A stretch of DNA of 64,000 nt. Source: Branchiostoma lanceolatum (lineage: Eukaryota > Chordata > Leptocardii > Amphioxiformes > Branchiostomatidae). Below, piece by piece: positions 6,268 to 64,000 of the stretch. The first letter of the stretch is position 1; the number at the start of each line of letters is the position of its first letter. The stretch lies in NCBI RefSeq assembly GCF_035083965.1, contig NC_089728.1:18167955-18231954 (forward strand), written 5' to 3'. The notes under the pieces are model-generated. The model made no database searches, was not told where the DNA came from, and was given only the letters and a program-made list of their open reading frames with translations. The position numbers and the translations under genes are program-made.

Positions 6268-6582
6268 CTGTCGTCTCCAGATTTCCTTGATCCCTCTGTC
6301 GTCTCCAGATTTCCTCGGTTCCCCCGTCGTCTCGAGATTTCCTTGGTACCTCCTGTCCTGGTAGATTTCCTTGGTTCCCCATGTCGTCTCGAAATTTCCT
6401 TAGTACCCCCTGTCTTGTCCATATTCCCTTGGTACCCCCTTTCGTGTCCAGATTTACTTGGTTCCCCCTGTCGTCTCCATATTTCCTTGGTACCCCCTGT
6501 CGTGTCCAGATTTCCTTTGTAACCCCTGTCCTGTCCAGATTTCCTTTGTTCCCCCTTCCATGCCCAGATGTCCTTGGTTCCT
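6268..6582. repeat. 29-bp minisatellite array 4
   Basis: About 11 units of the 29-bp family, entered abruptly from the foldback element at 6266 rather than from block B, and leaving into block C copy 3. Confidence 0.9.
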
Positions 6583-9183: not shown

Positions 9184-9645
9184 CAAGAACACGTCTACCT
9201 CACGCGTTAGAGTTGCCAATGAGTTATTAATGACGCACAAAGCAATACCATATGCTTTACGTACGTGTGTTACAACATAAAGGTCATCGAAAGGCTGAGT
9301 GGGTTATACGCTATTACTACTAGTATAGCGGCAACCATGTACGCTGGTACGTACGCTGTGCTGTTTCGACTGCATTTAACGCATACATATAGACGATAAG
9401 AGTAAGACACAAACAACACAGGCAATAATACAGTAGCCAGATCCCCCCCATCCGTACACTGGGTGTAGCATGCATGCATTCCACTAGAGGGTGCAACTAA
9501 ATATGTGTCTAACAGTAGGTGAATGGGTGGGAGGGGGGGGGCAATCTGGGTAGCTTGATGTGGTAGACATGCAAGGTACACAGGCCGGCTAGACACGCCA
9601 GGTAGACAGCCCAGCCTCAGCCTTTTCCTCAAACTCCCTGTCGTG
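9184..9645. repeat. Composite repeat, block B copy 4
   Basis: A complete block B (CAAGAACACGTCTACCTCAC to CCCAGCCTCAGCCTTTTCCT) with a poly-G run near 9533 where copy 1 has its longer G run. Confidence 0.87.
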
Positions 9646-10040
9646 TCCAGAATTCCTTTTAACCATCCGTCGTCTCCAGCTTTTCTTGGTACCCCCTATC
9701 GTCTCCAGATTTCCTTGGTACCCCCTGTCGTGTCTAGATTTCCTTGGCACCCCCTGTCGTGTCCAGATTTCCTTGGTACCCCCGGCCCCCGTTGAGTCCA
9801 GATTCCCTTGGTACCCCCTGTCTTGTCCAGATTTCCTTGGTACCCCCCGTTGTGTCCAGATTCCCTCGGTACCTTCTGTCGCGTAAAGATTTCCTTGGTA
9901 CCCCTGTCGTCTTCAGATTCCCTTGTTTACCTCCTGTCTTGTTCGATTCCCTTGGTGCCCCATGTCTTGTTCAGATTCCCTTGGTACCCCATGTCTTGCC
10001 CAGATTCCAGATTTTCTTGCTTGGTACCTCTTGATTTCTT
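9646..10040. repeat. 29-bp minisatellite array 6
   Basis: The last array of the composite region, about 13 units, ending near GCTTGGTACCTCTTGATTTC. Beyond it the composite repeat stops and the first intact gene begins about 750 bp downstream. Confidence 0.9.
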
Positions 10041-10791
10041 TTCCGACCCGTGTCGAATAGGGGGTTAGAGGATACCCCCTTCTATTTCTATATTGTCCAT
10101 ATCATCATCATTGCTTGTCGGTGTTTCTCTATCACCAGTCCAGTGCAGTTTCGTTGGCTTCTCGAAGGTCTGTGTCTTTGAGGTAGTTGAAAGTCTGAAG
10201 CTCTGCATCCGATGTTGTACAGTGATATTTGATATTGTTTTTTTTTATAATTGTAAACAAACGTTATTTTCCTTTTCCTTTCCCATGGGTGTTTTGTCGA
10301 TTTTTTTTTTCTGATGCACAAACAGTATGCTATCACCAATGATCTAATGGACTACTTTAGTCTTTTGACAATTCGTGAGAAGACTATCTAATGATCAAAT
10401 TGTACCAGCTGCTGCAATATCAAAAGCAATATGTCTATATGCTTCTTGCCCACAATCAGCCATCTTTGGATGTGTATTGCTGGATGTTTATTGAGGAATG
10501 TTGGGATGGTAACGAATCCCCCCCTGGAATCGATCTAATATTTGCCACAACGGCCTCGTTTTCATTCTATCATGTCCGCCGCGTGAGAAAGGTGTATTGT
10601 GTAGAAAGGTCTACTATCATATGGATGTTGAAAACTAATACATAGTAATATAATTATGGATGTTTATGCTATCACATAATGATTGCTTGTTGACAAATTG
10701 TACCTATTACCCAGAATCTAAGACATTGTTTATCCCGTGGCTACATTGTATCTCACGTGTGCTTCAGATTGTGAGAAAAAAAGAAGACGGA
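10041..10791. other. Presumed promoter and 5' region of the modular gene
   Basis: About 750 bp of ordinary-looking AT-rich sequence between the satellite region and the proposed start codon. Small open frames are short and unlike any module I recognise. A promoter must lie here or further upstream if the 10792 start is right, but I cannot place a TATA box or start site with confidence. Confidence 0.35.
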
Positions 10792-10876
10792 ATGAACATG
10801 CAAACTCTACTGGTCTGGAGGATGATGGTCGTGATGCTGATGCTACTGGAAAGAGTAGCACATGCATCTGCTGCCG
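10792..10876 (+). CDS. Exon 1: signal peptide
   Basis: ATG at 10792 opens a 28-residue sequence, [20 protein letters not shown] then RVAHASAA, with a hydrophobic core and small residues before a likely cleavage site. It ends at a strong donor (GTAAGT) in phase 1. In vitamin K-dependent protein genes the signal exon also ends in phase 1 before the propeptide/Gla exon, as here. An in-frame ATG lies upstream at 10660, but that extension is not signal-like, so I chose 10792. Confidence 0.65.
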
Positions 10877-13800
10877 GTAAGTCTCTTTTCCAAAAACATC
10901 CTAACCTCTACCAGGCTCCGCGGATGGCTGGAAAATAATAGAAATTGGCCAAATAGAGTGAATAGGCTAAGGGAGTCGGCTACGGAGAGATTGTCCAATA
11001 TGCCATCAGAGCGGCAAATGTACCTCTATAGCAGACTAACTCCTCTTGCATGTTGCTCAGCCTATTTGGCCTATTTCTATTTTTTCCAGCCGCATCTGGA
11101 GCCTGGTAGAGGCCATGTTCAAGTGTGTGTTTGGGGGGTCTAAAGGGTATCGCTGTTTTGCCTTTCAAGTGGGAAATAACATCCAGGTAGTAAGATACGC
11201 CAAAACTAGTTACTCAAGCAACTGGACAAAATTTTAAAACAGTCAGACGTTTCAGACAGCATCCGCTGTCTTTCGTCAGTGACTAACGATAGGACTGGAA
11301 AACCCAGGTTTTATACCAAAACTCTGAATAGAGTTACAACTAATAGCTACTGTTGTTTTAGTTCAGTAACTAAATGTTGTTCGTCCGGGGGTGGGGGTGG
11401 TGGTCATTACATTATCCCAAGTGCCTGAAAGTTCAACGCGTAGACCCCCTTTCCTGTTGAGGGCGGACGAACAACATTTAGTTACTGAACTAAAAGACCC
11501 TAAAACAACAGTAGCTAATTGAACTATTGGCATAAACCTTATCATCATCGCTGACTACTTGAAATTGAAACTTCTGGTCAGCAAAACGCCATTTAGTGAA
11601 GAACCTGACGACGGTGACACGAAATTTGCGTTCTTCATAAATATGATAATGATACAATACTTTCTAAACATATTACCACTTTTTGATGGTCCTCAATTGC
11701 GTTCTTGTCCTAGGGATAAGTGAGCGTGTTAAGGGCCACGGCACGTCACCGTTCATATCAGAAAAGGATGCCAATACCTTTTTGAAACCAAGTCATCGAT
11801 CCAAACGGTCTCCATCTGGAAGCCTGGTGGAAGAGTGTAGAGAAACATGCAATTATGAAGAATGGAGAGAGGTATATGACACCTTCACGGTAAGTGTGGT
11901 TATATGAATCATCTCTTCGATTATTATTTGTCACCAAGTAATTTCTGTATTTTGTATACCATCATGAACTTGATCAAACATTTTTTCCTGCCACTATAAG
12001 TTTGTTGACTTTCCTCCAATTTAATTGTTCGATATCCAGAAATGTGTGTAGAATCAATATGAAATCCGTGCAGTATCTTATAGCTATTAAACTTACCAGT
12101 ATCTTAAACTTACATGATTTTTTAACGCACTGTTCCAGAACGGCATACTTTACGAGTGTTCTTGTGAAACATTCCCATGTTCCGTCGGCCAAAGGTGTGC
12201 TCCAGCAACTCCGCCTTCCCCGCTACCAGGGCTCGACCCCAGATGGCGTAATTGTATCCCATTGCCAGGTTTGCGCATCTATTATTATGACCAGATCTGC
12301 AAGTTGAGGTAACGTCACTAAAACACCGTTTACACTTGTATCAAAGTTTGCCAATACGCAGCCGTACGCTAAAACGCTCGACATTTTTCGAATACATTGA
12401 TGTATGTGTGCCGCACACCTAGCGTACAAATAACGAAGTCAGTGCATCTATTGCGGATGAGATCCGCAACTCTATTTTTCTAGCTGCGAAAAGTTGCGTA
12501 TGCAGGCGCATGCTGATCATACTCCGGACGCAACCAGCTTATGACTACCGCATATGCATGTCTGACATACTTACGACGAATTAAAAAAAAGCGGATGCTT
12601 CCCACTGTTTTTATGATCAGTTCAGATTTCGTACGGTGAACATCAACACCTAGTCATCATCGCAGCTAGAAAAATAATGTTTCGCAACTCATACGCAATG
12701 GATGCGCTGAAGCCATTATTTGCCCGCTATGTGTGCGTCGTACATGTACGTCAATGTATAGCCCCTGTCACACTTGTGCGTATAAGCAATTCCGTGTGAG
12801 TTCAATATAAATTTTTCGCAATACGCTCAAAATATCAAATTGCATGGGACGGATTCAGTGCATCCATTGCGTATAAGACACGTATGATTTGCATATGAAA
12901 TGCGCAATACTATTGTACTTGCAACGAATAGCTGCGTATCAGGTGCGTATTCTGAGCGTATTTCGGACGCACACAACGTACGTCTGCCGACCGCATGCCT
13001 GATGCACTTCCGACTTATGCTAATTGCGAGCGTATTTAGTTGCATTGATATCAGTAGTTATTGTTACTGGAAGACGCCTTTACAACTGACGACAGGTAGG
13101 ACTTTCTTTATGTGTGTAACAGGGACATTAATGATTATTTGCATCGTGTTTTTACTATTTCAAGTTAGAATGTAGCATTTTATCATTTCATGTTTTACCT
13201 TTTACATCTTCTAGACGACGTGTGGCCATTTGTGCGTTTAGCCCATCTGGGCTGGAATATGCCATAAAGACTATTATTATCATTGAAAGTTATGTATACT
13301 ATTAAGGTTGTACTTGTTTCCTCTCTGCCCTTAACTAAATCAAATACCCGATCCGACCAATTAAATATTAAATCTGGAATGTACCCCGGATTTTTATCGA
13401 GTACGCTATGTGCACGCCATCCTTTCGCTATTTGTGCGATTGTCAAACGTTACTAATACGTACAATGCGCTGCCTGATCGCAAGACGAACGGCACTAGTC
13501 CGTGCCATATATTCTTATTCGCTATACGTTCGTTCATCGTGCGTTGTATCTGCGCTGCATGTATGCTATGTGTACGCTGCTCAGAGCTCGTGCCGCAAGA
13601 GAAGCGTATTGCCGCGTTTGAAGGGCGAACACATAAATTGACACGTACAAACCAGATATAATAGCTTAATAAAGACATAGCAAGCAGTGAGATATTCCCC
13701 GACAACTACATAGCACACCGTAAAGACAGACAACCTGGCCCTGGAGGTGGTGTGTTTTAGGTTGTGAGATCGTGCCGTAAGGGAAGCGTATTACCGCGTT

Positions 13801-16800
13801 TAAAGCGCAAACACAAAGCGCGCTCGTACCTTACTCGACCGATGTCGGACGTATACACTGCGTTCTTATAACGTCTGAGCTGCGAAACAGCGTTCGCACG
13901 AAAGTTTTCGGTAGTTTCAAAAATATCAGGCGTACTGGGCCCTACCTTGTGTGTGCCTGCGTACCTAAAACTTTCACAAAACGATTGAGATACGCGTTAG
14001 GTGCGTATTGTGGGCACGCCGGCGTATGACAAAAATGTTAATACGCAACTCACACGGACATGATATACGCACAAGTGTGACAGGGCCCTAAGTGGCGCTA
14101 GCAAAATGAATTGTATAACGCCACTTTGCCTTTGCCACTGTTATTCTTGAAAAAAAAAAAAAAAAAAAACACAGCGCGCTCGACCCTCACTCGACCGATG
14201 TCGGACGGATGCACTGCGTATTTATAACGTCTGAGCTGCGTAACAGCGTTCGCACGAAAGTTTTGGGTGGATCCAAAATTTTACAGCCGTACTGGACCGT
14301 ACTTTGCGTATGTCTGTGTACCTGAAACTTTCACAAAACGATTGAGATACCCATTAGGTGCGTATTGTGCATACGCCTGTGTATGAAAAAAAAAACATAC
14401 GCATCTCCCACAGACATAATATACGCACAAGAGTGACAAGGCCCTATTCGAAAAATATGAAGTTTCGAGCGTAGGGCTGCGTATTGACAAAATCTAATAC
14501 GTAACTCATACGGAATTGCAAATTAATAACGAATTCAGCGCATCCTTATACAGCGAATAGCTGCGTATCAGGTGCGTATGCTGAGCGTATTCCGGACGCA
14601 CGCAATATCTGCCGACCGCATTAATGACACACTTACGACTAATCCGCTGTCAAACTACACGACCTCGTCACCCCTCCAGATCCACAGCTACTGGACATTC
14701 ACTCAAGCCCCGGTTACACATAGCCGAGCATGGTCTCCCGAATCTCCCCTGACATGATTAGGAGTGATTCGGGAACTAGGTCGGCTGTAATCGGCTGGTG
14801 TTCGGCTTGGTCGGCTGGTGTTCTGCTGCGACAGCTGGTGTGTTACGCCTGATGGCGGTTATACCGGCTATATAGATACAGATATAGATACAGATACAGA
14901 CAGCCGAATGTTTTTAATACGTTAAAACATTTAAACTAGTCATCAGTGGTTATGACGTGGTTAAGGTTCTAAGTCAGCAGTAGAATTAGAACCTTAACCA
15001 AGTCATAACCACTGATGACTAGTTTCAAACCTATTATTATTAATGACTCACCACAAGGCCGTAGACAAATTTCTTCTAACTCATTTCCAACCAAAAGTGA
15101 CTGTTACCACATCGTGAGCAAATCACCCCAAACCTAAAAACGACCCAAAACAAAGAAAAATACTAAAAGCCTTATTAATGCTTACCATGATCCTAAAGGG
15201 GTATCAGAGAAAAGGCCAAGAGGTAATACAACAGTTTCAGAAAGAAATACATTTTTTTCTGATTGAAGTAAGAATGATCTGTGCTTCATAGTCTAAACAT
15301 CTAACAATTTCAGACGTGCAGGCACATGCATGGCGCCCCCGTGTCCTTTCCATCCAATATAGATTTACATCGTTGAAGCCTGCTTCCTCCTTCCATAAAG
15401 ATGGACTTGTCCTGCACCACCAAGTTAGCTCTATATCTAGCCTACACCTACGGAGCGATTGCCTCTCCCCTGCGCCAATAGAAATTCCGGCATAGTGATT
15501 TGTTTCCCGGAAGTGCACAAGGAAGGTTTGGGTAACTCATCACTGTCCCGTAGGAACATAGAGAGTGGTAGCGAGCAAGAGGTGTCCGTTGGGTAGTGAT
15601 CTTTAGCTAAACTTTATGCTTTGGTACCGATATCAATTAATGTACGTCTGGTACCGACGACTGCAGTTTTTCAGCCTCATGACGTTTTCCTAACCCTTTT
15701 CCAAACCAGGCTACACAATGTAAATAAGCGTCATGGTCAAATCTGTTTCGTCACTTTTTTCAGTTCGGATATGTTCTACTTCACCATCACTGTGGGATCC
15801 TGTGGGTACCTATATCCTGTTGGGGGTGGATGCTATGGTGTCGAGCGGGTAGTGAACTTTTGCTAATCTGTTTGATTTCTTACAGATGTCAACGCATGTA
15901 GGGCCGGCACCGACGACTGCATTTCTCAAGCCCCATGTACTAACTACCCTTTTCAAACCAAGTCTCTCAATGGAAATGAACGTCATGCCCAAATCTGTTT
16001 CATCATTCACTTCAGGTTGCTCCGCCCCACCAAGCATCTCCTACACCTCCAGGAGCGGATGTGCCTCCCCCTACACACACGGGGAGAGCTGTACCTACCG
16101 GTGCCAGTCTGGATACGCCCAAATCTCCGGTAGTACCACGAGGACCTGTTCTAGTGGAAGCTGGAGTGGGACCAACCTTGCCTGCGGTATGTATACAAAA
16201 TTGGTTTCGATCAGTGTCACGACAGTATTGACGTAATTTCCTTCGCCTGCCCGAAAATAAGCAACATCGACAATCAGGCAAAGCACGGAGATGGCAAGAA
16301 GGGATCATTACGAAAAAGAGAATCTTCAGAAGTATTTGCCAGTTTTTTTTCTCAGAATGTTTTGTGACCTGATATGGGGAAGCTTTAAAATGGACGTCTT
16401 CTCAGTTCTGCTCTGGCTGGAAGCTGTATATCGATAGTCTGTATAACGCAAACTACAGCTGTCCGGGGTTTTCTCTCGGTTACAGGGCGGCGAGCGGTCA
16501 CAGGAGGTTTGATTGAATTCAGGCTAGTATATCGAGACCTGCTGTCTACGGTGATCACTGTGTACACAGTCCCTTGAGTGAAGGCCATAGTTTGACTTTC
16601 CCCAAGCCTCGTGGCATTTTCTGTACCATTTTGAAATCAGGCTGCATAATAAAAATCAACGTCATGTTCATATCTGTTTCATTACTTTTCCAGTTCGTTT
16701 ATGCTCCCCTCCACCAACCCTCTCCTACACCACCAGGAGTGGTTGCTCTTCCCCCTACACACAAGGGGAGACCTGTACCTACCGGTGCAACTCTGGATAC

Positions 16801-37800: not shown

Positions 37801-40800
37801 ACCTGCCATCTGTTGAAGGCATCATAGAAGTTTCAAAAGTTCTAATATGAATGAACAATTGAAACGACTCGTGTATTGTCGTGCTATGTGTACTTCCCTG
37901 TAAACCTCTATATACACATTCTACTGTCATATATTCTGTTCTTTCCATTAACAGTAATGTGACGACCAGGAATGGAGACTGCAATTTGAAAACATGCACC
38001 GATGTTGCTAACTAAAAGAAATAAATCATAAATGATAACCGTAAAATGCTTCCCTTCCTGCCAACCTGCCTAAGAGCTTAAGTCAGAAACTTGCTCCTTG
38101 CCCCCCTCCGTTATGTATCTTATTGTTGGACGTTCCAAGGTCGAAGATTATGCAAGGTCGAAGGTCAAGTGTAATTCACGATCTGGTCTTTTCAGTGCCG
38201 GGGGGTGGGGGGATGCGGGGGCTGGCTTCCCGCGATCTGTGGTACGAAAAGCCCTGGTGGGATGCTTTGTAAACCTATGTTTGTGGCAGTCTCCTGCAGT
38301 GCATTCAATTGAGTAAAAACTTGACGAAGATTGTAATCACAAAATGGGAAGGTGTATCTAGCAACACTTTTTATAAACCACAGCAATTGCAGTTACAGCG
38401 GCCGAATTCGAAAGCACAGAAGTCCCAACGACCCCAACTCCGACCATTGTCACTACTGAGCCCCGTGATTTTATAAATGATTATATTATCTCCTTCCTAA
38501 TGTGAATTTGGCATTTGGCAGGTGTGGTGACTTAACTTATTACATGTCAGTGCATTAGTATGTATTTTTGTGTATTAAAGAACGATTTTTATAAATTACA
38601 GAAAACGCAGGGACAACCGCAGCGGCCGAAAGCACAGCAGCTCCAGCGACACCAGCTAGAATGATTGTAACTACTGAGTCAAGTAAGTTCACAAATGACC
38701 GACACATTTTTGCGACGAATCTGGCCGTATGGGGTCCAAACTGACCCCATTTTGCTTTGCCCCTAAATATATTTCTGGTGGATCTTATTGTAGTTATTGT
38801 GTACATCCTGTTTCATTAGTCTATGGAGAATATTTGGACAAGTTTTGGTGTTGATGATTAATGCTCATTATCATAATTTATGCAGAAAATGAGGAGAATC
38901 GCATTTTCCTTTAACCGTATATCTAGACTGGGGGGACTAAAAGTTCAGGCGCCAACTTTGACATCGTTTAACTGCCAAACGACGTGTTCTAGCACTACCA
39001 AACTTGGTGACTTTTCCCAAAATTTAGTTGGCAACACTTTCATGATAATAGTTTAAGTTTATCATTTTTCCTGTTGCCATGGCAACGGGTTTCTGACAGG
39101 CATTTTATACAAGAAGTCACTAATTTTTCAAGAACAATGATATTTCTCAGGTTTTCTTTCTCAACCACACTAGTTTTCCAACATGTATAACATCATATTC
39201 AATTAGATGTAACTTTCATGATTTATCATTCATAATTTATGCTAATTTGATGACGTAATCGCTCAAAATCCAACATGGCGGACAAGACGATTATTTCAGG
39301 TATAAACAGTCTTTTTGCCTTCAAATTCGTCACTACCTGGTATTTTCTTAACCAGAAACATTCAGATTAATGTTAACAGTCTCTTTCTTTTGTGATTTGG
39401 GGTCATAAATGGAAAAAAATGTATTTTAAGATTTCAAAATGGCCGATCCAAGATGGTAGCCTGAGTACCAGCCTTTTTAGCTTCCGTCCGCTACCCTAGC
39501 TCCGCTGCGCTACCCAAGCTCCGCGAGGAGCGGGGCTTGGGTAGCGTACGGAAGCTAAAAAGGTTGGCACTCAGGCTACCAAGATGGCGGATCCCAGGGA
39601 TCGCTAACAACACATGACGTCATTCTATGACGTCATTTTGACGTCAACGTAATCGCCATTGACGTTGTATGCCTTGGCATACCTTAAAATCAATAATACA
39701 CTCTATTTTGTTTAATAGCTTTCGATATTACGGGACTTTCCTATTTAGCCTATAAAATCACATCGATGACGTCATAAATACGTCATATTACGTCATAACG
39801 CCACTCAATTTACAGCAATTTTGAAACTTTACGTGAACATCACTCCATGCAAATTTGGTGAGGATGTATTATACCGTTTGGATGTTATAAGGAATTTCTT
39901 TCAAATTACGTAATAAACAATGCGAAATCATCTGGGGTCCGTTTGGACCCCAGCGGACAACACGCACACTTTAGAGTATAACTTCCGCAAAAATTGGCCA
40001 ATCCCGGTGAAAATTGCTCAGTAGTTGGAAGACATGTACATAAACAAACTCATAGAAGGATTTTTTTCTCCGTCGAAAAATGTTGATATGGCACACATTC
40101 AAACACGCCAAATGGACCCCATACGGTCGGATGAGGGTTAATGTGAATTTCGCATTTGATAGGAGTGGAGATCTTCACGATTATATACATTCAATGTTTT
40201 CTTTTTTATTAAATAACACTTTTTACAAACCACAGTAACCAAAGTGACAACGAAAGCGACCACAGCAGCTCCATCGACACCAACTCCAATGATTGTCACT
40301 ATTGAGCCGCGTGAGTTCAAAAAGATCTTAATATATAAAAGTTCATCGATGAATGCATATTTGATAGGAGTGGAGGCTTTATCAATTATGTTATTACTTG
40401 TATAGGAAGAATTCCAAACAAAGTCATTACCACATTTTTAATTGTCATAGAAGTGAGCCTGACCGCAGACTCTCAGCTGGCACGTGTTCCAGGCCTGTCT
40501 AACTTGATCTTCACCGACGTTGGGATAGATTACGTCTCGCTGTCATGGACGGCACCGACTGACCTCTTGATAACGGGATACCGGGTCCGGTATAAGCACA
40601 CAGGCGGCTCGCACAAAGACCTGCACCCCCCGCCCTCAGCCAACGACACCACGGCCACCGTACGGGGACTCTGGGCACAGACAGAATACACATTCACTGT
40701 CACTTCTTTTGGCGAGGACGATAGGAAGACCGGGGAAATCAGCGGGACACAGATAACAGGTTAGTCCCTAGATGTTGGATTTTAGATAGCGGAATAGGGT

Positions 40801-43800
40801 TGAAGAAAGCTGTATTGCATACCATTAGAAAAAATGGGAAAAGGAAATAATAGTTATTCTATTGTATACATCACGAGTTTAAACTGGTGGGATTCCATAT
40901 GCAATCAGAAGGTAAAGCGGCTCACTGCCATCAGTTAGAAGTTAAAAGTGAATGTTACATGGGACCAGAAGCAGGTAGAGTAATATATGATGTAACCTTA
41001 TAAACAGTATAAGTGCATAATTCCTTTGCTACAGCTGAAGTGGAGGTGAACGTCCTGTGTAGCCAGGAGCAGATGCAGTTGTCCCTCCCCAAAGCAGCCC
41101 TGCCAGGTGTGTCTGTGGACAATCTGCACCTGCTGGACGACACCTGCCGAGTTACAGAAAGTCCGACACATGTGACGGCACGAACTAGTCTTCAAGAGTG
41201 TGGGACCATTCAAAATGTGAGTATTACTATGATCTGCATGGTCTGGGATGGTTCCTCTCCCATCGATGTGATCATCCTTTCAAGCTTCTCAGGATACTGA
41301 TGCACTCGTTAACACTAACTCACTTAGGTCCCGTAACCTCAGTGGTCGTAGGGGCTTGATGCAACCCTACAAAAAATACAGATTCTGTATGCAAATGAGA
41401 GCGATTATCATACTCGTGTGAAATGCAAAATAGATAATTATGCTCTGCCATAGCTTTCTGCCGGAAGAAGTTTGCTTTAAACTTCCATTGAGTCACATAC
41501 ATAGCTCGTCACAGCAGCATTTTAGTTTCACCAGCATGATACGAATGAAAACAGTTCCCTAATCTGTAACTATTGAAATTCTTGTGTTGAGGGCTGTTCA
41601 ATACAGAATCATCCCGACCGAATCTTCTGTTCTTGGATCTAAATAGCACTTAATTTCTCTTATCTGTATCTACATTGCTGGTACAACCGCCCTTCGGCGT
41701 ATGTCTTACACTAGTGCAATTTCAGTTTCCCACAACAACCGAGAGTAGGCCAGGGCAAATCTTGACTGAATCGAACAGCTCTCGTGCATGTTTTGTTTGT
41801 GTTGGAAGAAATCTTGACTAGTGAACAAGTAATGCTATAGGTTGTTTTTTTGCTTACTTTATGTAGACTTCGGCACATGATAAACTCACCTTCATAAACG
41901 AGATCATCGCCAACCAAGTGACGTATGAAAATGGCGCTGTCAGAGGCACGACTTTCAGGAAACGGTTCCAGTGTGAGTTTATCCGCCAGTACGAAGTCTC
42001 ACAGGGAAAAGACATTCTGTACAATATCCCCTCCCCTCGGTAAGTGTTCCTGGTTAGGTCATCTGATTTTCCCTTGTCCTATTCCCATGTGACATCCTAA
42101 TTTCTTTCTGAGGCAATAGTCACATGTTGGTGCATTTTCCCTCACAGTGTGCAGATTGTGAATGCAAACAACAGCTTTACCTTTGAGATGCACATGTTTA
42201 CGTCCGCAGACTTCACCACTACCTACAAGTCCGATAACTTTCCTCTCCAGGTAGAAAAAGATCACTCTTTCCCTGTACTTATATTATGGTAAAACGCGAG
42301 TACATATCGATGCACTGCAGTAGAATACTAGTAATATGATCTGTCTCCGTGTTCTATCAGAATCACAACATCCACATTGGTTTCAACATGGTAAACATGG
42401 AACAATTAGAAACTTTCCTTTGTTGTTGTCTTAATATCGGTCCACCCATACCTCTTATTGTCGCCAGGTATTGCCATCTGACCGCATTCACTACGGTCTG
42501 AGCGTACAATCACCTCTGGGTAACATGGAGTTGTTTGCCCTGGACTGTGTCTCTACACCCACCATGGACCCTGACGACTCGCCAAAAGTCACCATCATTC
42601 AGGACGGGTTCGTGCCCCTGAACTGTTTTCCCCTTAAATTTGTCTTAGACCAATCTGCCTCTGCCTCTTTCATTGCAATCTTTGTGAAAATTCCAGACCC
42701 GTGGAGCGAACTGAATGTCACTACGATGTCTTTGTCCCCTCCAGGTGTGACATCGACCCCACCCTGACGAGGGACAGCACCCTTTCTACTGACATGGCAC
42801 TGTACTTTTCCATCGAAGCCTTTACCTTCCCAGACTCTGTTGACTCCAACCTGGTAAAAGAAATGGACCTATAAAGGTTGCTTTGGTGATGGATAATACG
42901 AGGTATTGGTGAGGTGGTGATGAGACTGATATGATCAGTTGAGGAACAGCGGAAGGATTGGTTTGGTGGTGGCCTGACATGTGAGGTTGCAGGGAGGATG
43001 AAGCCGTGACCTCGTGCAATGATTGATGGGACTGTGGTGAGGTTCTGGTGAGCCTGTGATGGTGGGTGTTGGTTGATCAGCCACATGTCAGATTATGCAT
43101 GAGTAGCTTCTAGATATGTCCTTCAATTGTTTACTTTCTTTAATCTTCACAAGGTACCTATACATCAATAATGTTCACTGCCTTAAACCTTTAGAACATT
43201 AATAAATACATGTCATCTGAAAGAGGACTTTTCTTTTGTAACGATATTCTATCATATAATGCCTTTTTTTGCAAATACATAGCTCTGTTTTGATGATTTT
43301 ACAAGCTGAGGCTGAAATATTCACACTGTCTTGACCAATTTCCTTGTTTATGTTGCATTAATTTACACACAAGCCTAATGGGATCTCCTGTACATGTAAA
43401 TGCCCAAATCGCCATGGTATCCAGAATGATAATGTGCAAGAACGCAGTGAAGAATATGGGATATTTTAGGAACCTGATCAATGCCTTATCTTACTTACTT
43501 CTCTACATAACAGGTGTATCTGCATTGCACCATGGTGGTCTGCCTGAAGGATGACCTGAACTCCAGGTGCAGGCAGGGCTGCATCTCCGCCAGGCGTCGC
43601 AGAGACGTGGGAGGAGACGGCCGGGTCCGACGCGACAGTAGCAATGACCTCCAGGAGTCTGTCACTCAAGGGCCATTCAGGATCCTCAGGGACCAAGACG
43701 CAGGTAAAGGATGCTTTCTAAGATGCGACTTTCTAATCAAATTATAGTGATATGATGGATGTTCCATGGCTCTCAAGTAAAATTACTTGCTAGCTTCAAC

Positions 43801-44731
43801 AACTGGTGATTCTAAGTACTTATGACATTTTTTTATGTTGATGAATTGCACTCTTGGTGATCTTCTACTTTGTTAGTTAAGAAAAAAAGGCATGTTGAGC
43901 CCAGATAGTACTTCCTTCACAGTAGTTTCAGAAGCTTCACTTTGAACTGTATATTGATGTAACAATAGCCTTACATAGAGACATAAATGATTTCTCATCT
44001 CTTAAGCGTCTTTCATGTATATATTTTATATTGCTGAGCTGAATTTCATTCTAGTTCTGTACATTGCTAATGAATTACTTTGTAATACAATACGATTAAA
44101 TCATTTATCAAACAGGTGCTATTCTACCTGCTGACACCTTTGAAATAACATACATTTTTAGATTGGGTAACCAGTGAGTTCTTGTTCTCTTTGATTCTGC
44201 ATGTAGATTCCAACATCCCCGTTGTTGGCGTGGCAGTCGGCGCGGTCGTGGGGCTGGCCGGTCTCCTGCTGCTCGTGGTCGCCGTGGTCCTGGTGAGGAG
44301 GAAGCGTGCCAAGGCGCAGGCTAAGGACTTTGTCGGTGAGTCAAGTAAGGTAGCGATATGGTAGTCTCAACCAGACTACTTCGGCTGTAGGCAGAACAAT
44401 TGAGGGGAGTTTAAGTTGGCCACCATAGGGTTTCATTTGCAGAATTTTACGATCTATGCCCCCGTAGGGAGGCCTGGAAGAGGCCGGAGATTTGGGATGG
44501 GCTACGTTGTCTGCTGAAATGACAAAGATATTGATTCAAAGGTTGAGTGTAGCCCTTCACATACTAGTAAACGCCTACGTTTTCTCCTCTTATTAAATAT
44601 CTTTTATCAATAAGAGTACGTTACACTGTTCAGCTCTAAGGACTAAGTTATTTTTGTTTGTTTGTTTTTCAGGTGTGGAAAACTACGCCTTTCAGGTCTT
44701 CGGAAAAGACAATTGCAAGACCAAAATCTAA
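10792..44731 (+). CDS. Gla-sushi-EGF-FN3-ZP transmembrane protein (gene model, 46 exons)
   Basis: Joining all exons listed below gives 6,552 bases, exactly 2,184 codons, with every junction in phase. Domain order: signal peptide; propeptide and shortened Gla domain; Cys-rich linker; 14 sushi domains with six cysteines each; 17 calcium-binding EGF domains; three Thr/Pro/Ala linker exons; one fibronectin III domain; a ZP domain over six exons; a polybasic processing site; a transmembrane helix; a tail of about 30 residues. From 16016 to 40759 every exon starts and ends in phase 1, which is why modules could be duplicated freely. Sushi, EGF and ZP modules are typical of extracellular matrix or surface proteins; ZP domains polymerise after cleavage at a basic site. 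The function is not known. The N-terminal three exons are the least certain, because 3.7 kb of repeats separate them from the first sushi exon and they could belong to a separate small gene. I recognise no single named orthologue. Confidence 0.7.
10905..11112. mobile_element. Complete foldback MITE in intron 1
   Basis: 208 bp with long terminal inverted repeats: the left arm starts CCTCTACCAGGCTCCGCGGA and the right arm ends GGAGCCTGGTAGAGG, pairing over roughly 50 bp (GGCCAAATAG against CTATTTGGCC). The right-hand interior shares CTATAGCAGACTAACTCCTC with the truncated element at 6108. It sits 28 bases after the exon 1 donor. No coding capacity. Confidence 0.82.
11344..11517. repeat. Imperfect inverted repeat in intron 1
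   Basis: Arms TAGCTACTGTTGTTTTAGTT..GTCC (11344-11386) and GGACGAACAACATTTAGTTA..TAGCTA (11465-11517) pair almost fully, around a loop with a GGGGGTGGGGGTGGTGG run. Upstream, 11220-11290 carries CAGACAGCATCCGCTGTC, itself a small palindrome. Likely the remnant of a foldback transposon. Confidence 0.75.
11714..11889 (+). CDS. Exon 2: propeptide and shortened Gla domain
   Basis: Phase 1 in, phase 0 out, the same pattern as the Gla exon of coagulation-factor genes. The propeptide keeps the carboxylase-recognition spacing F-x5-A-x3-L (in [12 protein letters not shown]) and ends at a furin-type RSKR. The following [14 protein letters not shown] and [11 protein letters not shown] match the core of Gla domains (cf. 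the family pattern LEREC-EE-C-YEEAREVF). Glutamates suitable for carboxylation are present. Two oddities: the domain lacks the usual stretch between the first Glu pair and the disulfide, and the loop is C-x3-C instead of C-x4-C. Such a domain would bind calcium and phospholipid if carboxylated, but the short form may not. An acceptor (TCCTAG) and donor (GTAAGT) are present. Confidence 0.65.
12139..12268 (+). CDS. Exon 3 (candidate): Cys-rich linker
   Basis: Found by looking for an exon that enters in phase 0 and leaves in phase 1, which is what is needed to join the Gla exon to the first sushi exon. After a good acceptor (ACTGTTCCAG) it reads [20 protein letters not shown], then [24 protein letters not shown], with five cysteines and no stop, ending at GTTTGC, a weaker donor. 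It is not an EGF or sushi domain and I do not recognise it. Joined to the first sushi exon it gives PLPG-CSAPP without a break. The call rests on phase and composition only. Confidence 0.45.
12430..12758. other. Intron sequence, transposon-like
   Basis: Rich in GCGTATGCAGGCGCATG-like CpG-containing words shared with the element that follows. It is probably a piece of a related DNA transposon. No exon seen. Confidence 0.4.
12759..14090. mobile_element. DNA transposon with CCTGTCACACTTGTGCGTAT termini
   Basis: About 1.33 kb bounded by inverted repeats: TAGCCCCTGTCACACTTGTG at the left and CACAAGTGTGACAGGGCCCT near the right end. Pairing continues through GTGCGTAT and GTGTGAGTT. The interior is full of GCGTAT/ATACGC words in both orientations and shows no transposase that I can recognise, so it is non-autonomous. 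Confidence 0.7.
14145..14450. mobile_element. Partial second copy of the 12759 transposon family
   Basis: After a run of about 20 A, sequence resembling the 13800-14090 part repeats (AACGTCTGAGCTGCGTAACA, GTATTGTGCATACGCC). It ends in ACGCACAAGAGTGACAAGGC CCTA, a diverged version of the right terminus. Confidence 0.6.
14700..15025. mobile_element. Partial GTTACACATAGCCGA element with a hairpin
   Basis: CCGGTTACACATAGCCGAGC at 14709 matches the terminus of the complete element at 28603-29476; the other end is missing here. Between 14933 and 15025 lies a near-perfect hairpin whose arms begin AAACTAGTCATCAGTGGTTA and end TAACCACTGATGACTAGTTT (39-base arms). A short GATATAGATACAGATACAGA run precedes it. 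Confidence 0.65.
15400..15500 (+). pseudogene. Decayed sushi exon
   Basis: CCTACACCTACGGAGCGATT and CCTCTCCCCTGCGCCAATAG resemble the middle of the live sushi exons (TCCTACACC..AGGAGCGG..TGCCTCCCCCTAC), but the frame is broken and the second half is missing. Not included in the gene model. Confidence 0.5.
15628..15690 (+). pseudogene. EGF half-exon relic
   Basis: CCGATATCAATTAATGTACG TCTGGTACCGACGACTGCAG matches the first half of the EGF exons, but the acceptor CAG has become CCG and the GAA codon is now a stop-bearing TAA. The second EGF half is absent. Confidence 0.7.
15887..15960 (+). pseudogene. EGF half-exon relic upstream of sushi 1
   Basis: A good acceptor (TTTCTTACAG) is followed by sequence encoding [20 protein letters not shown], the first half of a calcium-binding EGF. 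The match to EGF then ends and runs into the conserved intron leader that precedes sushi exons. No donor follows at the homologous place. It is open for a further 250 bases, but in a frame that disrupts the sushi domain. Confidence 0.65.
16016..16186 (+). CDS. Sushi exon 1 (57 codons)
   Basis: Phase 1-1, acceptor CACTTCAG, donor GTATGT. Encodes [15 protein letters not shown], then [15 protein letters not shown] and the hallmark SWSGTNLAC. Six cysteines against the usual four of CCP domains; the extra pair (SGC and ESC) is shared by every sushi exon here. First member of the 57-59-58 codon cycle. Confidence 0.9.
16694..16870 (+). CDS. Sushi exon 2 (59 codons)
   Basis: Phase 1-1, acceptor TTTTCCAG, donor GTATGT. 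Starts [17 protein letters not shown] and has the distinctive ETGNTVRTC in place of the commoner VSGSTTRTC. Closest relatives are sushi exons 5 and 8. Confidence 0.9.
17340..17460 (+). pseudogene. Decayed sushi exon
   Basis: GAGAGGCGGTTTTTACTTCC CCTGCGCCAATTGGGCGATA continues into CCATCCTGGGTGTATAACAT, a diverged sushi middle section without intact cysteine spacing. The better-preserved equivalents are at 20964 and 24857. Confidence 0.5.
17597..17660 (+). pseudogene. EGF half-exon relic upstream of sushi 3
   Basis: ACAG followed by ATATCAACAGATGTACGGCC GGTACCGACAACTGCAGTCC: the EGF start [14 protein letters not shown] (Glu lost), then a stop (TGA) where the second half should begin. Confidence 0.7.
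17727..17900 (+). CDS. Sushi exon 3 (58 codons)
   Basis: Phase 1-1, acceptor TTTTTCAG, donor [48 protein letters not shown]. Third member of the first length cycle; related to sushi exons 6 and 9. Confidence 0.9.
18510..18615 (+). pseudogene. Decayed sushi exon
   Basis: GTCCTGCACCACCAAGTTAG, then AGCCTACACCTACGGAAGCG GATGCCTCTTCCCCTGCGCT mirror the CP-P-SYT-SGC-SPY part of a sushi domain, with indels. The region 18290-18620 is itself a duplicate of 15190-15500. Confidence 0.5.
18748..18805 (+). pseudogene. EGF half-exon relic
   Basis: CCGATATCAATTAATGTACG TCTGGTACCGACAACTGCAG, with the same destroyed acceptor and TAA as the relic at 15628. The two lie in duplicated intron segments. Confidence 0.7.
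19001..19105 (+). pseudogene. EGF half-exon relic open into sushi 4
   Basis: Acceptor TTCTTACAG, then [13 protein letters not shown] one-base deletion in the leader (CATGCCAAATG instead of CATGCCCAAATG) makes this frame run without a stop straight into the sushi 4 reading frame (..[18 protein letters not shown]). Splicing at 19001 instead of 19106 would therefore give an in-frame extension of 35 codons. Most likely a relic, but a usable alternative exon is possible. Confidence 0.55.
19106..19276 (+). CDS. Sushi exon 4 (57 codons)
   Basis: Phase 1-1. [42 protein letters not shown]. Almost identical to sushi exon 7 including introns; starts the second three-exon cycle. Confidence 0.92.
19810..19870 (+). 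pseudogene. Decayed sushi exon fragment
   Basis: AATAGGAGAGATGTGTACGT ACTGATGCTGTCCCAGGTAC corresponds to [10 protein letters not shown] of a sushi domain with a stop (TGA) in it; the flanks are lost. Duplicated at 23710-23760. Confidence 0.5.
19996..20060 (+). pseudogene. EGF half-exon relic upstream of sushi 5
   Basis: GTACTAAATGTACTGATGGT ACCGGCGATTACATTGCAGT keeps the C-T-DGTGD-C spacing of the EGF first half but has lost the DIN-E start and has a one-base frame change before the second Cys. Confidence 0.6.
20128..20304 (+). CDS. Sushi exon 5 (59 codons)
   Basis: Phase 1-1. [43 protein letters not shown]. Pairs with sushi exon 8 from the large duplication; ETGNTV identifies it as the second member of its cycle. 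Confidence 0.92.
20964..21130 (+). pseudogene. Decayed sushi exon
   Basis: After a surviving acceptor (CTCATTTCAG), GAGAAGCGGTTGTTACTTCC CCTGCGCCAATTGGGCAATA and CTAACGGTGCCATCCTGGGT follow the SGC-SPY-G-TY-C-GY path of a sushi domain. Cysteine codons are lost and the frame is shifted. Duplicated at 24857. Confidence 0.6.
21258..21310 (+). pseudogene. EGF half-exon relic upstream of sushi 6
   Basis: TGTACAG, then ATAGCAACGGATTTGCGTCC GACACCAACTGCAGTCCTCA: the EGF start reduced to [13 protein letters not shown], with the first cysteine gone. Copied at 26219. Confidence 0.65.
21380..21553 (+). CDS. Sushi exon 6 (58 codons)
   Basis: Phase 1-1. [42 protein letters not shown]. Its twin is sushi exon 9, in whose upstream intron a transposon has landed. 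Confidence 0.92.
21721..21790 (+). pseudogene. EGF half-exon relic upstream of sushi 7
   Basis: Acceptor TTCTTACAG, then [20 protein letters not shown], where the second cysteine has become Phe. The intron leader that should follow is interrupted at 21814 by an insertion, so this relic is now 1.2 kb from its sushi exon. Confidence 0.7.
21814..22957. mobile_element. 1.14-kb insertion between relic and sushi 7
   Basis: Absent from the paralogous position before sushi 10, where CACAATGAAAATGAATGTCA is uninterrupted. Here CACAATGAAAA is followed by CTAGAGTTCCACGACCTCAT and the sequence resumes after TTCTCGGCGAAGGT. The ends carry short inverted ACCTTCGCC / GGCGAAGGT. The interior is AT-rich with repeated CATTAATTATGCAAATTAG and a duplicated CCGCTAGGGGGCCCAAA motif. 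Only about 2 bp (AA) is repeated at the edges. No transposase seen. Confidence 0.75.
22999..23169 (+). CDS. Sushi exon 7 (57 codons)
   Basis: Phase 1-1. Encodes the same residues as sushi exon 4 over the whole domain as far as I can compare. First exon of the duplicated block that continues to about 26769. Confidence 0.92.
23710..23760 (+). pseudogene. Decayed sushi exon fragment (duplicate)
   Basis: Same sequence as 19810-19870, carried along in the large duplication. Confidence 0.5.
23889..23953 (+). pseudogene. EGF half-exon relic upstream of sushi 8
   Basis: Duplicate of the relic at 19996 with no visible change. Confidence 0.6.
24021..24197 (+). CDS. Sushi exon 8 (59 codons)
   Basis: Phase 1-1. 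Identical in translation to sushi exon 5 ([25 protein letters not shown]). Confidence 0.92.
24857..25015 (+). pseudogene. Decayed sushi exon (duplicate)
   Basis: Copy of the relic at 20964. The transposon at 25028 landed just downstream of it. Confidence 0.6.
25028..26088. mobile_element. Non-autonomous DNA transposon with target-site duplication
   Basis: 1,061 bp with 13-bp perfect inverted termini, GAGGGTCTGCATG and CATGCAGACCCTC, flanked by the direct repeat ATATAA (25022-25027 and 26089-26094). The empty site survives in the paralogous intron at about 21128 (GGGATATAAGACAGG), which proves the insertion. The subterminal regions contain several copies of AACGCTTAACGGTAAATTCA. The interior has repeated GAAACGCT and CAGAAGAGTTTCAG words but no transposase. 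Confidence 0.92.
26219..26272 (+). pseudogene. EGF half-exon relic upstream of sushi 9
   Basis: Duplicate of the relic at 21258 (ATAGCAACGGATTTGCGTCC). Confidence 0.65.
26341..26514 (+). CDS. Sushi exon 9 (58 codons)
   Basis: Phase 1-1. Same translation as sushi exon 6. Acceptor TTTTATCACAG, donor GTATGT. Confidence 0.92.
26682..26765 (+). pseudogene. EGF half-exon relic upstream of sushi 10
   Basis: Duplicate of the relic at 21721 ([20 protein letters not shown]). The leader to the sushi exon is intact here, so this copy shows the pre-insertion state of 21814. Confidence 0.7.
26814..26984 (+). CDS. Sushi exon 10 (57 codons)
   Basis: Phase 1-1. [51 protein letters not shown]. Clearly related to exons 4 and 7 but with more replacements (RSG to IRG, SSGG to SIGG). 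Opens the fourth cycle. Confidence 0.9.
27510..27565 (+). pseudogene. Decayed sushi exon fragment
   Basis: GAGAGATATGTACCTACCGA TGCTGTCCCGGGTACAGTGT follows GE-CTYRC-GYSV of a sushi domain with frame damage. Homologous to 19810 and 23710. Confidence 0.5.
27745..28030 (+). pseudogene. Decayed sushi exon split by a hairpin insertion
   Basis: ACTGTTCCTGCGCCACCTAG and, after the hairpin at 27801-27945, CCCCTGTGCCAATAGGAGCA, ATCTACCTATCGATGTTGTC CCGGGTAC. The two halves of a degenerate sushi exon are separated by a foldback insertion. Confidence 0.5.
27801..27945. repeat. Long hairpin
   Basis: Arms of about 65 bases, GGTATTCTCCAAGCAGAGGC..CTAACG (to 27865) and CGTTAG..GCCTCTGCTTGGAGAATA (from 27879), pair with very few mismatches around a 13-base purine loop. 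It looks like a recent foldback insertion. Confidence 0.85.
28279..28455 (+). CDS. Sushi exon 11 (59 codons)
   Basis: Phase 1-1, acceptor CTATTTCAG, donor [49 protein letters not shown]. Same length class and RLCS start as sushi exon 2, but with VSGST in place of ETGNT. Confidence 0.9.
28603..29476. mobile_element. DNA transposon with AAGCCTAGGTTACACATAGC termini
   Basis: 874 bp with perfect 30-bp inverted ends: AAGCCTAGGTTACACATAGC CGAACATGGC and its complement ending CCTAGGCTT. The interior is a mosaic of CAGCCGAACACCAGCCGAC and its reverse complement (CGGCTGG), giving further self-pairing (CATTCGGCT near 29300). No transposase. A truncated relative lies at 14700. Confidence 0.9.
29770..29835 (+). 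pseudogene. EGF half-exon relic upstream of sushi 12
   Basis: GATGATGAACGAATGTATGG CAGGTACCCCGGTAAGTATA keeps NECMAGT, but the acceptor and DI are lost and the DNCS part has become a donor-like GTAAGTAT. Confidence 0.6.
29904..30083 (+). CDS. Sushi exon 12 (60 codons)
   Basis: Phase 1-1, acceptor TTTTTTTTCAG, donor [51 protein letters not shown]. The longest sushi exon. It ends in Cys-Arg before the split Gly, a change it shares with exons 13 and 14. Confidence 0.9.
30535..30655 (+). pseudogene. Decayed sushi exon
   Basis: CTGACCTATACCTACAGAAT CGGTTGTTACTCTCTCTGCC and GGGAGAGATGTTCCTACCGG TGACG follow the sushi pattern, with a TGA replacing the fourth cysteine. Confidence 0.6.
30782..30815 (+). 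pseudogene. EGF half-exon relic upstream of sushi 13
   Basis: CTGCAG, then ATATCAACCAATGTATGACT GCAGTCC: the EGF start with its middle (GTDN) deleted and a TGA in frame. Confidence 0.65.
30903..31079 (+). CDS. Sushi exon 13 (59 codons)
   Basis: Phase 1-1, acceptor CCTTTTTAG, donor [57 protein letters not shown]. The otherwise invariant Gly-Tyr after the fourth Cys is Gly-Ser here. Confidence 0.9.
31440..31595 (+). pseudogene. Decayed sushi exon
   Basis: After CTTCCTCCTTCCATAAGGTT, the words AAGTGGTTCTTCCTCTACCT and CTACCTACCGGTCCCGATCC echo SGC-SPY and TYRC-, with cysteine codons lost. Confidence 0.45.
31726..31785 (+). pseudogene. EGF half-exon relic upstream of sushi 14
   Basis: TCTGCAG, then [41 protein letters not shown], an EGF start without DI and without the GT of AGTDN. 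Confidence 0.65.
31840..32016 (+). CDS. Sushi exon 14 (59 codons)
   Basis: Phase 1-1, acceptor CTTTTTCAG, donor [48 protein letters not shown]. The last sushi domain. Its split Gly codon becomes the Asp of DIN in the next (EGF) exon. Confidence 0.92.
32373..32495 (+). CDS. EGF exon 1 (41 codons)
   Basis: Phase 1-1 with donor [39 protein letters not shown]. It has the calcium-binding DINEC start and the C-x-N-x4-F-x-C hydroxylation pattern; all following EGF exons keep both unless noted. First of 17 exons of exactly 123 bp. Confidence 0.95.
32660..32782 (+). CDS. EGF exon 2
   Basis: [37 protein letters not shown]. Acceptor TTTCTACAG, donor GTATGG, which is used by nearly all the EGF exons that follow. 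Confidence 0.95.
32914..33036 (+). CDS. EGF exon 3
   Basis: [36 protein letters not shown]. Acceptor CTTCTATAG; donor GTAAGG, the closest to consensus of the array. Confidence 0.95.
33168..33290 (+). CDS. EGF exon 4
   Basis: [33 protein letters not shown]. The ISGYNGDG ending is shared only with exon 5, pointing to a local duplication. Confidence 0.95.
33445..33567 (+). CDS. EGF exon 5
   Basis: [36 protein letters not shown]. Acceptor TTTCAAACAG differs from its neighbours' TTTCTACAG. Confidence 0.95.
33688..33810 (+). CDS. EGF exon 6
   Basis: [33 protein letters not shown], with extra acidic residues in the second half. Confidence 0.95.
33932..34054 (+). CDS. EGF exon 7
   Basis: [30 protein letters not shown]. 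The usual Gly-Gly-Phe turn is Asp-Gly-Phe here. A long repeat-containing intron follows. Confidence 0.95.
34100..34620. repeat. Repeat insertion in intron after EGF 7, related to block B
   Basis: On the minus strand, roughly 34550-34425 reads ..CAACTGAGAAAGTGTCTGAC..GAATTGGGG..AGTAGCCTGACGCGGTAGAG..CCAGGTAGACAGGTCAGCTA..GTAGACAGCCCAGCC. This follows the end of block B of the 1-10 kb composite repeat in the same order, with divergence. No minisatellite units follow. Confidence 0.65.
34937..35059 (+). CDS. EGF exon 8
   Basis: [36 protein letters not shown]. The only EGF of the set with DTN in place of DIN/DID. Confidence 0.94.
35200..35322 (+). CDS. EGF exon 9
   Basis: [33 protein letters not shown]. 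Acceptor GTTTAAACAG has a poor pyrimidine tract. Confidence 0.94.
35443..35565 (+). CDS. EGF exon 10
   Basis: [33 protein letters not shown]. Its flanking introns match those of exons 6 and 11 (GTGTGCCTTTACTATCATAC). Confidence 0.95.
35691..35813 (+). CDS. EGF exon 11
   Basis: [37 protein letters not shown]. Close to the array consensus. Confidence 0.95.
35938..36060 (+). CDS. EGF exon 12
   Basis: [33 protein letters not shown]. Donor GTATTG. The intron before it matches the one before exon 9 (GAATAAATGGCCTTTGTTAA). Confidence 0.95.
36246..36368 (+). CDS. EGF exon 13
   Basis: [33 protein letters not shown]. Confidence 0.95.
36508..36630 (+). CDS. EGF exon 14
   Basis: [34 protein letters not shown]. 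Gly-Ser-Phe replaces Gly-Gly-Phe. Donor GTATTG. Confidence 0.95.
36785..36907 (+). CDS. EGF exon 15
   Basis: [36 protein letters not shown]. From here the start is DIDEC, the commoner form in fibrillin-type EGFs, and introns no longer resemble those of exons 2-14. Confidence 0.95.
37128..37250 (+). CDS. EGF exon 16
   Basis: [33 protein letters not shown]. Acceptor TTCCCACAG. Confidence 0.95.
37636..37758 (+). CDS. EGF exon 17
   Basis: [34 protein letters not shown]. Same 123-bp length but clearly the most diverged; probably the oldest EGF module, next to the conserved FN3-ZP part. Confidence 0.95.
38393..38464 (+). CDS. Linker exon 1 (Thr/Pro-rich)
   Basis: Phase 1-1, 72 bp: [23 protein letters not shown]. 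Acceptor AATTGCAG (an alternative at 38383 would add three residues), donor GTGATT. The composition suggests an O-glycosylated stalk. Confidence 0.6.
38602..38682 (+). CDS. Linker exon 2 (Thr/Ala-rich)
   Basis: Phase 1-1, 81 bp: [26 protein letters not shown]. Donor GTAAGT. Shares the ending MIVTTE and the AAEST/TPxP pattern with the other two linker exons, so the three are duplicates. Confidence 0.7.
38725..40126. mobile_element. Probable DNA transposon in the linker intron
   Basis: CCGTATGGGGTCCA (38725-38738) and TGGACCCCATACGG (40113-40126) are perfect inverted ends of a 1.4-kb AT-rich block that contains further GGGTCCGTTTGGACCCC palindromes and the hairpin at 39455-39580. No coding sequence. 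Target duplication not identified. Confidence 0.55.
39455..39580. repeat. Nested hairpin
   Basis: Arms GGTAGCCTGAGTACCAGCCT..CTTCCGT and ACGGAAG..AGGTTGGCACTCAGGCTACC pair over about 33 bases and continue through GCTACCCTAGCTCCGC / GCGGGGCTTGGGTAGC. A foldback insertion nested inside the larger element. Confidence 0.82.
40236..40310 (+). CDS. Linker exon 3 (Thr/Pro-rich)
   Basis: Phase 1-1, 75 bp: [24 protein letters not shown]. Acceptor AACCACAG, donor GTGAGT. The MIVTIEP ending parallels linker exons 1 and 2. Confidence 0.7.
40451..40759 (+). CDS. Fibronectin type III exon
   Basis: One 309-bp exon, phase 1-1, holds a whole FN3 domain: start [21 protein letters not shown], then [23 protein letters not shown] and a closing [10 protein letters not shown]. 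The conserved Trp of strand B, the Tyr-x-Val-x-Tyr of strand C and the Leu/Tyr of strands E-F are all present. FN3 domains next to a ZP domain occur in other extracellular proteins. Confidence 0.92.
41035..41216 (+). CDS. ZP domain exon 1 (ZP-N)
   Basis: Phase 1 in, phase 0 out, donor [26 protein letters not shown] opens the ZP-N half (V-C-x5-M), followed by DDTCRV and LQECGT, matching the first three conserved ZP cysteines. After the long run of phase-1 module exons, the ZP domain is split by introns of mixed phase. Confidence 0.92.
41867..42039 (+). CDS. ZP domain exon 2
   Basis: Phase 0 in, phase 2 out, donor [19 protein letters not shown] and [13 protein letters not shown] carry the ZP-N core strand (Y/F-x-N) and the fourth cysteine. 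Confidence 0.9.
42148..42250 (+). CDS. ZP domain exon 3
   Basis: Phase 2 in, phase 0 out. [33 protein letters not shown]: the linker into ZP-C (F-x-M-x-L-F pattern). Confidence 0.88.
42468..42607 (+). CDS. ZP domain exon 4 (ZP-C)
   Basis: Phase 0 in, phase 2 out. [22 protein letters not shown] then VTIIQDG, the usual C-x-A-TP ... L-I-x-D-G-C-P section. The donor GTTCGT is poor, but it restores DG-C with the next exon, as the family requires. Reading on instead reaches a stop at 42764. Confidence 0.85.
42745..42853 (+). CDS. ZP domain exon 5
   Basis: Phase 2 in, phase 0 out. [20 protein letters not shown] then [10 protein letters not shown], the F-x-F-E-A-F-x-F motif of ZP-C domains. Confidence 0.9.
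43514..43703 (+). CDS. ZP domain exon 6 and polybasic site
   Basis: Phase 0 in, phase 1 out. [21 protein letters not shown] complete the ZP-C cysteines. ISARRRRD follows, a furin-type consensus cleavage site just after the ZP domain, and a second basic cluster GRVRRDSSN. Cleavage there normally releases ZP proteins for polymerisation (family knowledge). Confidence 0.92.
44207..44335 (+). CDS. Transmembrane exon
   Basis: Phase 1-1. [20 protein letters not shown] followed by [15 protein letters not shown]: one hydrophobic helix with small-residue (GxxxG-like) spacing and a stop-transfer RRKRAK, making this a type I membrane protein. Confidence 0.93.
44673..44731 (+). CDS. Last exon: cytoplasmic tail and stop
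   Basis: Acceptor TTGTTTTTCAG, phase 1. [18 protein letters not shown] then TAA at 44729-44731. NYAF and the C-terminal KTKI are the only signal-like features of a very short tail. No obvious AATAAA lies in the next few hundred bases. Confidence 0.85.

Positions 44732-55034: not shown

Positions 55035-64000
<8,966 letters not shown>

Follow-up and report, generated by a model that had tools for sequence, protein, structure and literature searches.

A Lancelet Locus That May Join a Divergent Gla Module to a Sushi/EGF/FN3/ZP Membrane Protein

This lancelet locus raises the question of whether a Gla-like part (10792-12268) and the sushi, EGF, FN3 and ZP modules encoded from 16016 onward belong to one gene or to two. 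Both parts are on the + strand of the window, which is the whole stretch of DNA analyzed (64 kb). As a matter of judgement and not of computation, we lean slightly toward one shared transcript and protein at 10792-44731.

The exon chain rebuilt from the sequence remains in phase from 10792 to 44731 and contains a single stop, at its very end. The first version of the chain counted 47 exons and, with the stop, 2,197 codons. One 10-residue exon at 42361-42390 was dropped as probably false; the ZP-C domain scores 87.2 bits without it and 77.3 bits with it. After this correction, the model comprises 46 exons and 2,187 codons including the stop. The initial annotation proposed 46 exons joined in phase to exactly 2,184 codons; its in-phase chain and exon number agree with ours, but its codon total does not. 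Among the 44 internal exons, 36 are in phase 1-1.

The downstream part starts with 14 sushi (CCP) exons at 16016-32016, one domain each, all in phase 1-1 and all with six Cys (14/14). In the first three of these exons, which were scanned, Pfam Sushi matched three stretches (87 bits against a cut-off of 20.7, E 1.1e-24). Their best PDB match is complement factor H, and no selectin is found in the best 60 of 83 rows. Seventeen calcium-binding EGF exons of 123 bp follow at 32373-37758, also in phase 1-1. All 17 fit the cbEGF consensus D-x-[DN]-E-C...C-x-[DN]-x4-[FY]-x-C-x-C, and the first two, which were scanned, match Pfam EGF_CA with an E of 1.4e-22. Three Thr/Ser/Pro-rich exons (38384-38464, 38602-38682 and 40236-40310), the first with a weak donor, likely encode an O-glycosylated stalk. 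An FN3 domain exon is at 40451-40759 (Pfam fn3, E 3.3e-10). The ZP module, with 10 Cys, is encoded by six exons (41035-41216, 41867-42039, 42148-42250, 42468-42607, 42745-42853 and 43514-43703). ZP-N scores 47.4 bits against a cut-off of 24.7 (E 2.5e-12), and the score of ZP-C given above compares with a cut-off of 24.6 (E 1.3e-24). The closest PDB structures of the module are GP2 and uromodulin. Two furin-type sites, RRRR and RVRR, lie after ZP-C, followed by a single C-terminal transmembrane segment. Its exon (44207-44335) contains the hydrophobicity maximum of the protein (2.97 over 19 residues). The terminal exon (44673-44731), present in the exon chain and in both gene-finder runs described below, encodes a short cytoplasmic tail and the stop. 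Sushi, EGF_CA, fn3, ZP-N and ZP-C thus exceed their Pfam cut-offs, and Gla is below; the scans were run outside the + strand of 44.7-64 kb and the minus strand of 1-10.6 kb and 16-44.7 kb.

A single membrane-protein gene is the best reading of the sushi, EGF, FN3 and ZP parts, since the blocks are joined by short introns that keep phase 1. They are 356 bp from sushi to EGF, 625 bp from EGF to the Thr-rich exons, 140 bp from there to FN3 and 275 bp from FN3 to ZP. The longest intron in the downstream part is 2,143 bp. The proposal in the initial annotation that these four module types form a single membrane protein is therefore upheld. A gene finder that started from generic settings and took its own output as training, with no exons supplied, recovered 14/14 sushi exons, 17/17 EGF exons and the terminal exon. 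It found the FN3 part only partially, one of the six ZP exons exactly (42745-42853) and the last ZP exon in part. It also read 41959-42052 in the wrong frame, started the gene with a false exon (15771) and included an EGF remnant (21723). When the gene finder was trained on the downstream exons, which makes the result partly circular, the Thr-rich, FN3, ZP, transmembrane and terminal exons were all exact.

The sushi/EGF/ZP receptor has grown by tandem duplication. Over all pairs, pS is higher than pN in both arrays, at 0.297 and 0.135 for the sushi exons, and 0.388 and 0.124 for the EGF exons. Among the ten sushi pairs given individually, one is reversed (S7-S10, dN 0.084 and dS 0.075) and two are identical. 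A block of three sushi exons is duplicated with 99.1-99.7% DNA identity including introns (19066-21135 and 22958-25029; 21128-21813 and 26089-26774). It is either a very recent tandem duplication or an assembly or haplotype artefact; in the latter case, the actual number of sushi modules is lower by three. Half EGF exons are observed in introns ahead of sushi exons, at 15581-15681, 15837-15937, 17555-17723, 21671-21813 and 26632-26802. They suggest descent from an EGF-sushi repeat unit in which the EGF exon has since decayed. The first two, upstream of sushi 1, were considered as exons and rejected, as the second half of the EGF domain is missing from both; where the gene finder did include one, it had to take a poor donor (-2.6).

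The Gla-like part consists of three exons. Exon 1 (10792-10876) contains the start codon and a signal peptide and ends in phase 1 with the donor ccg/gtaagt. The signal-peptide scan scored hydrophobicity by a crude rule instead of a trained predictor, and was relaxed since a stricter version missed this exon. Its 12 hits on the + strand fall at 5 places, and exon 1 has the top hydrophobic core and donor among them. Exon 2 (11714-11889, phase 1 in and 0 out) encodes a carboxylase-docking propeptide, a furin-type site RSKR and the Gla-like domain. In F9 and F10, the propeptide-Gla exon is likewise flanked by phases 1 and then 0. Exon 3 (12139-12268) encodes a Cys-rich segment, which alone matches no Pfam family, and ends in phase 1 with the donor CAG/gtttgc.

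The propeptide motif FI-x4-AN-x2-L (that is, F-x5-AN-x2-L) has the same spacing as factor X (FIRREQANNIL). In the cryo-EM structure of GGCX with factor IX, according to the available text, docking contacts include F31 and L41, ten residues apart (PMC12589487), and exon 2 matches this F-to-L distance. The propeptide pattern occurs three times where 0.78 are expected, and is therefore telling only through its place just before the Gla core. The core pattern E-x2-[ERK]-E-x-C-x6-[EDR], from PROSITE, has one six-frame match in the window, at 11830, with 0.067 expected from 60 windows simulated by a first-order Markov model. The full PROSITE pattern has no match in the joined protein; it fails at its last element, an aromatic pair [FYA]-[YW] 10-11 residues later. 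The string ANTFL was considered as the start of the Gla domain, by comparison with ANSFL of factor X, and rejected, as its spacing fits the propeptide and RSKR comes next.

The signal peptide, docking propeptide and Gla core are shared with the vitamin K-dependent Gla proteins (factor X, factor IX, protein S/Gas6 and PRRG). Unlike in these proteins, the Pfam score is below the cut-off, the two cysteines of the core are separated by three residues instead of four, about six Glu are present in the core, and no protease, kringle or LamG part is seen. The omega-loop, by which Gla domains insert into or bind membranes, is also missing: on inspection of the factor X alignment by eye, SPSGSLV lies between RSKR and the core EEC, where factor X has the longer ANSFLEEMKKGHLER. 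Pfam Gla (PF00594) gave 19.5 and 20.8 bits, the latter with an E of 0.00046, against a cut-off of 27. Pfam UCMA gave 12.8 bits against 27.6, and NCBIfam had no match in the region. The Gla part is probably a divergent relative of the clotting-factor Gla modules. The identification of a Gla domain in the initial annotation thus holds as probable homology, helped by the propeptide, which was not part of that annotation, but at a score under the threshold and with parts of the canonical domain missing. The carboxylated, calcium-dependent head that it envisaged is plausible from the docking motif.

In our estimation, it is very unlikely that the Gla-like stretch resembles a Gla domain only by chance, or is what remains of a dead one, beside an ordinary sushi/EGF/ZP membrane protein. 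Such an origin would agree with the score under the curated cut-off, with the weak PDB match (factor X, E 0.0063) and with the presence of a single copy, which leaves none to compare for selection. The silence of the gene finder on the Gla exons at realistic penalties points the same way: neither the self-trained nor the downstream-trained run predicted them, and a lenient run on 10300-15000 alone made no prediction. An over-permissive run contained 11714-11889 and 12139-12268 with the same borders, amid exons called everywhere on both strands; its penalties were too low, and it was excluded from the evidence. Against chance or decay, a single open chain, well spliced, carries first the signal peptide, then the propeptide motif and then the Gla core, the core motif is as rare as stated above, and the factor X alignment, the best in PDB, spans the propeptide, the Gla domain and the start of EGF1. 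A more serious possibility, which we nevertheless hold to be somewhat doubtful, is that the locus contains two neighboring genes, one for a small Gla protein that is secreted and another for the sushi/EGF/FN3/ZP membrane protein. The former would consist of 10792-10876, 11714-11889 and a terminal exon 12139-12312, giving 144 residues with six Cys after the Gla core, and the latter would have its own first exon somewhere between 12.3 and 16 kb. Exon 3 has five Cys if spliced at 12268 and an even six if read to the in-frame stop at 12310, which favors two genes. The gap between the parts is large and filled with repeats, the gene finder did not join the Gla exons to sushi 1, and an ATTAAA is found at 12580. 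However, the four AATAAA/ATTAAA hexamers in 12313-16015 are near the rate of the + strand (63 in 64 kb). A signal-peptide-like first exon at 13002-13095 (+ strand) has a donor score of 3.6, but its ATG is inside a local repeat. The signal-peptide scan of the gap gave no other rival, and no convincing one.

What ties the two parts together is the in-phase donor at 12268. It scores 0.3 with the generic matrix and 1.4 with the retrained one, below 30 of the 33 model donors listed; in an ORF of this kind, chance alone would yield 0.16 in-phase donors as good as this one. The donors at 12194 (2.9 generic and 2.0 retrained) and 12308 (2.3 and 0.8) are in phase 2 and do not fit sushi 1. Between exon 3 and sushi 1, no additional exon that keeps the frame from any of these three donors was found when acceptor and donor were each required to score at least 1.5 under the retrained matrices (0 candidates). 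That Gla and ZP occur in one protein, as the initial annotation proposed, is a tentative reading: it rests on a single intron of 3,747 bp with a middling donor. This intron is the longest of the model and exceeds the log mean of the others by 2.5 SD. In favor of the join, a ZP membrane protein needs a signal peptide, and the ZP gene has no recognizable one if exons 1-3 are taken away. A missing signal peptide has been taken as a sign of a truncated gene model, as stated in the available part of one report (PMC3927609).

The joining intron itself (12269-16015) is repeat-rich. Pfam scans of its three + frames and of the minus strand of 10600-15999 (all three frames) gave no domain. Much of the gap, at 12392-14643, is taken up by short repeats, both direct and inverted, that have motifs of the GCGTA type and are probably the remains of mobile elements. 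Matches to other places in the window cover 62% of 12313-16015. The last 823 bp (15193-16015) are 82% identical to part of the intron between sushi 3 and sushi 4 and hold EGF remnants; therefore, the DNA of the exon array extends further upstream than sushi 1, which favors neither one gene nor two.

Among known proteins, uromodulin and GP2, the ZP proteins of kidney tubule and of pancreas and gut, have the closest solved ZP modules. The locus has furin-type sites and a membrane anchor after ZP-C as they do, and uromodulin also has EGF-type modules before ZP. In contrast to them, the locus has 17 cbEGF and 14 sushi modules and a transmembrane helix instead of a GPI anchor; we know of no sushi array or Gla domain in UMOD or GP2. 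The long tandem sushi array resembles complement factor H and CR1, here with one exon per module. Sushi modules usually have four cysteines, whereas all 14 here have six, as the sushi domains of selectins do. The two additional cysteines probably pair in a further disulfide that lies between the first and second canonical Cys. The amphioxus egg-coat proteins BbZP1-5 are also cephalochordate ZP proteins. In the available text on them, BbZP1 has a transmembrane segment, BbZP1, 3 and 4 have a furin site, BbZP2-5 have LDLa and vWFA domains, and EGF is reported in none of the five (PMC3543715). The present gene shares both the transmembrane segment and the furin-type sites, but differs in having EGF, sushi, FN3 and possibly Gla.

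If there is one gene at 10792-44731, its product would be a type I membrane precursor. The module order, the in-phase chain, the identity of the sushi, EGF, FN3 and ZP modules and the docking motif are read directly from the DNA. From the N-terminus, the precursor would contain the signal peptide, the propeptide, a short Gla-like domain with a Cys-rich tail, 14 sushi, 17 cbEGF, the Thr-rich stalk, FN3, ZP, the furin-type sites and the transmembrane segment. In the ER, gamma-glutamyl carboxylase would bind the propeptide and modify some of the few Glu, and furin would cut the propeptide off at RSKR. Cleavage at RRRR/RVRR would free the ectodomain, which may form polymers by means of ZP, like uromodulin. 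From such a filament, a calcium-stiffened sushi/EGF arm would stand out, tipped by the Gla module. Because the membrane-insertion loop is lacking, binding to phosphatidylserine is unlikely, and the tip would more likely hold calcium-bridged ligands such as mineral, glycans or other proteins. By analogy with uromodulin and GP2, our best guess is that the protein likely serves in a coat, secreted or surface-bound, over a wet epithelium of the gut, pharynx or skin, where it would trap particles or microbes.

The initial annotation stated that no described protein combines Gla and ZP, and this is borne out as far as the matches listed in the open-licence literature go, among which there is none. 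The available parts of papers on Mgp/Bgp, on Gla proteins of Ciona and cnidarians and on Gas6/protein S contain nothing on a lancelet Gla-ZP protein, and one of them, in the text available, reports no Mgp/Bgp-like sequence in amphioxus data (PMC8006282). The accessible text of a study on lancelets describes extreme exon shuffling biased to 1-1 phase exons, with new domain pairs gained at an estimated rate of more than 10 per million years (PMC4284660). Since new domain pairs made from 1-1 phase exons are known there, a new combination in a lancelet is expected in kind, which tempers the surprise. If the join is real, a vitamin K-type carboxylation module and a ZP module of the filament-forming type would occur together in a described protein for the first time, as far as the listed matches in the open-licence literature show. 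Vitamin K-dependent modification would then reach a polymeric surface coat, and this in an animal that presumably lacks vertebrate clotting; the gene would also be a clear case of the 1-1-biased shuffling described in that text. Taken as a whole, the proposal of a lancelet vitamin K-dependent filament protein, made by 1-1 phase exon shuffling, with a loop-less Gla tip on the sushi/cbEGF arm of a ZP polymer, and bringing gamma-carboxylation together with ZP matrices in a setting other than clotting and bone, is tentative, and we place it a little short of even. Even if there are two genes, the locus contains a divergent Gla protein that has kept the docking motif and a long sushi/EGF/ZP receptor.

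Elsewhere in the window, a partial receptor tyrosine kinase gene with Ig domains is observed on the minus strand at about 58000-64000, where it is cut by the window end. In the best 60 of 143 PDB rows for its kinase part, the top row is an EGFR entry, with no single stretch passing alone, followed mostly by FGFR1-3 and some RET. Upstream of the 10792-44731 gene, arrays of a 29-bp minisatellite (CTGTCGTGTCCAGATTTCCTTGGTACCCC and phase variants) are found at 24-1352, 1775-1973, 4072-4515, 6268-6594, 7743-8830 and 9636-10006.
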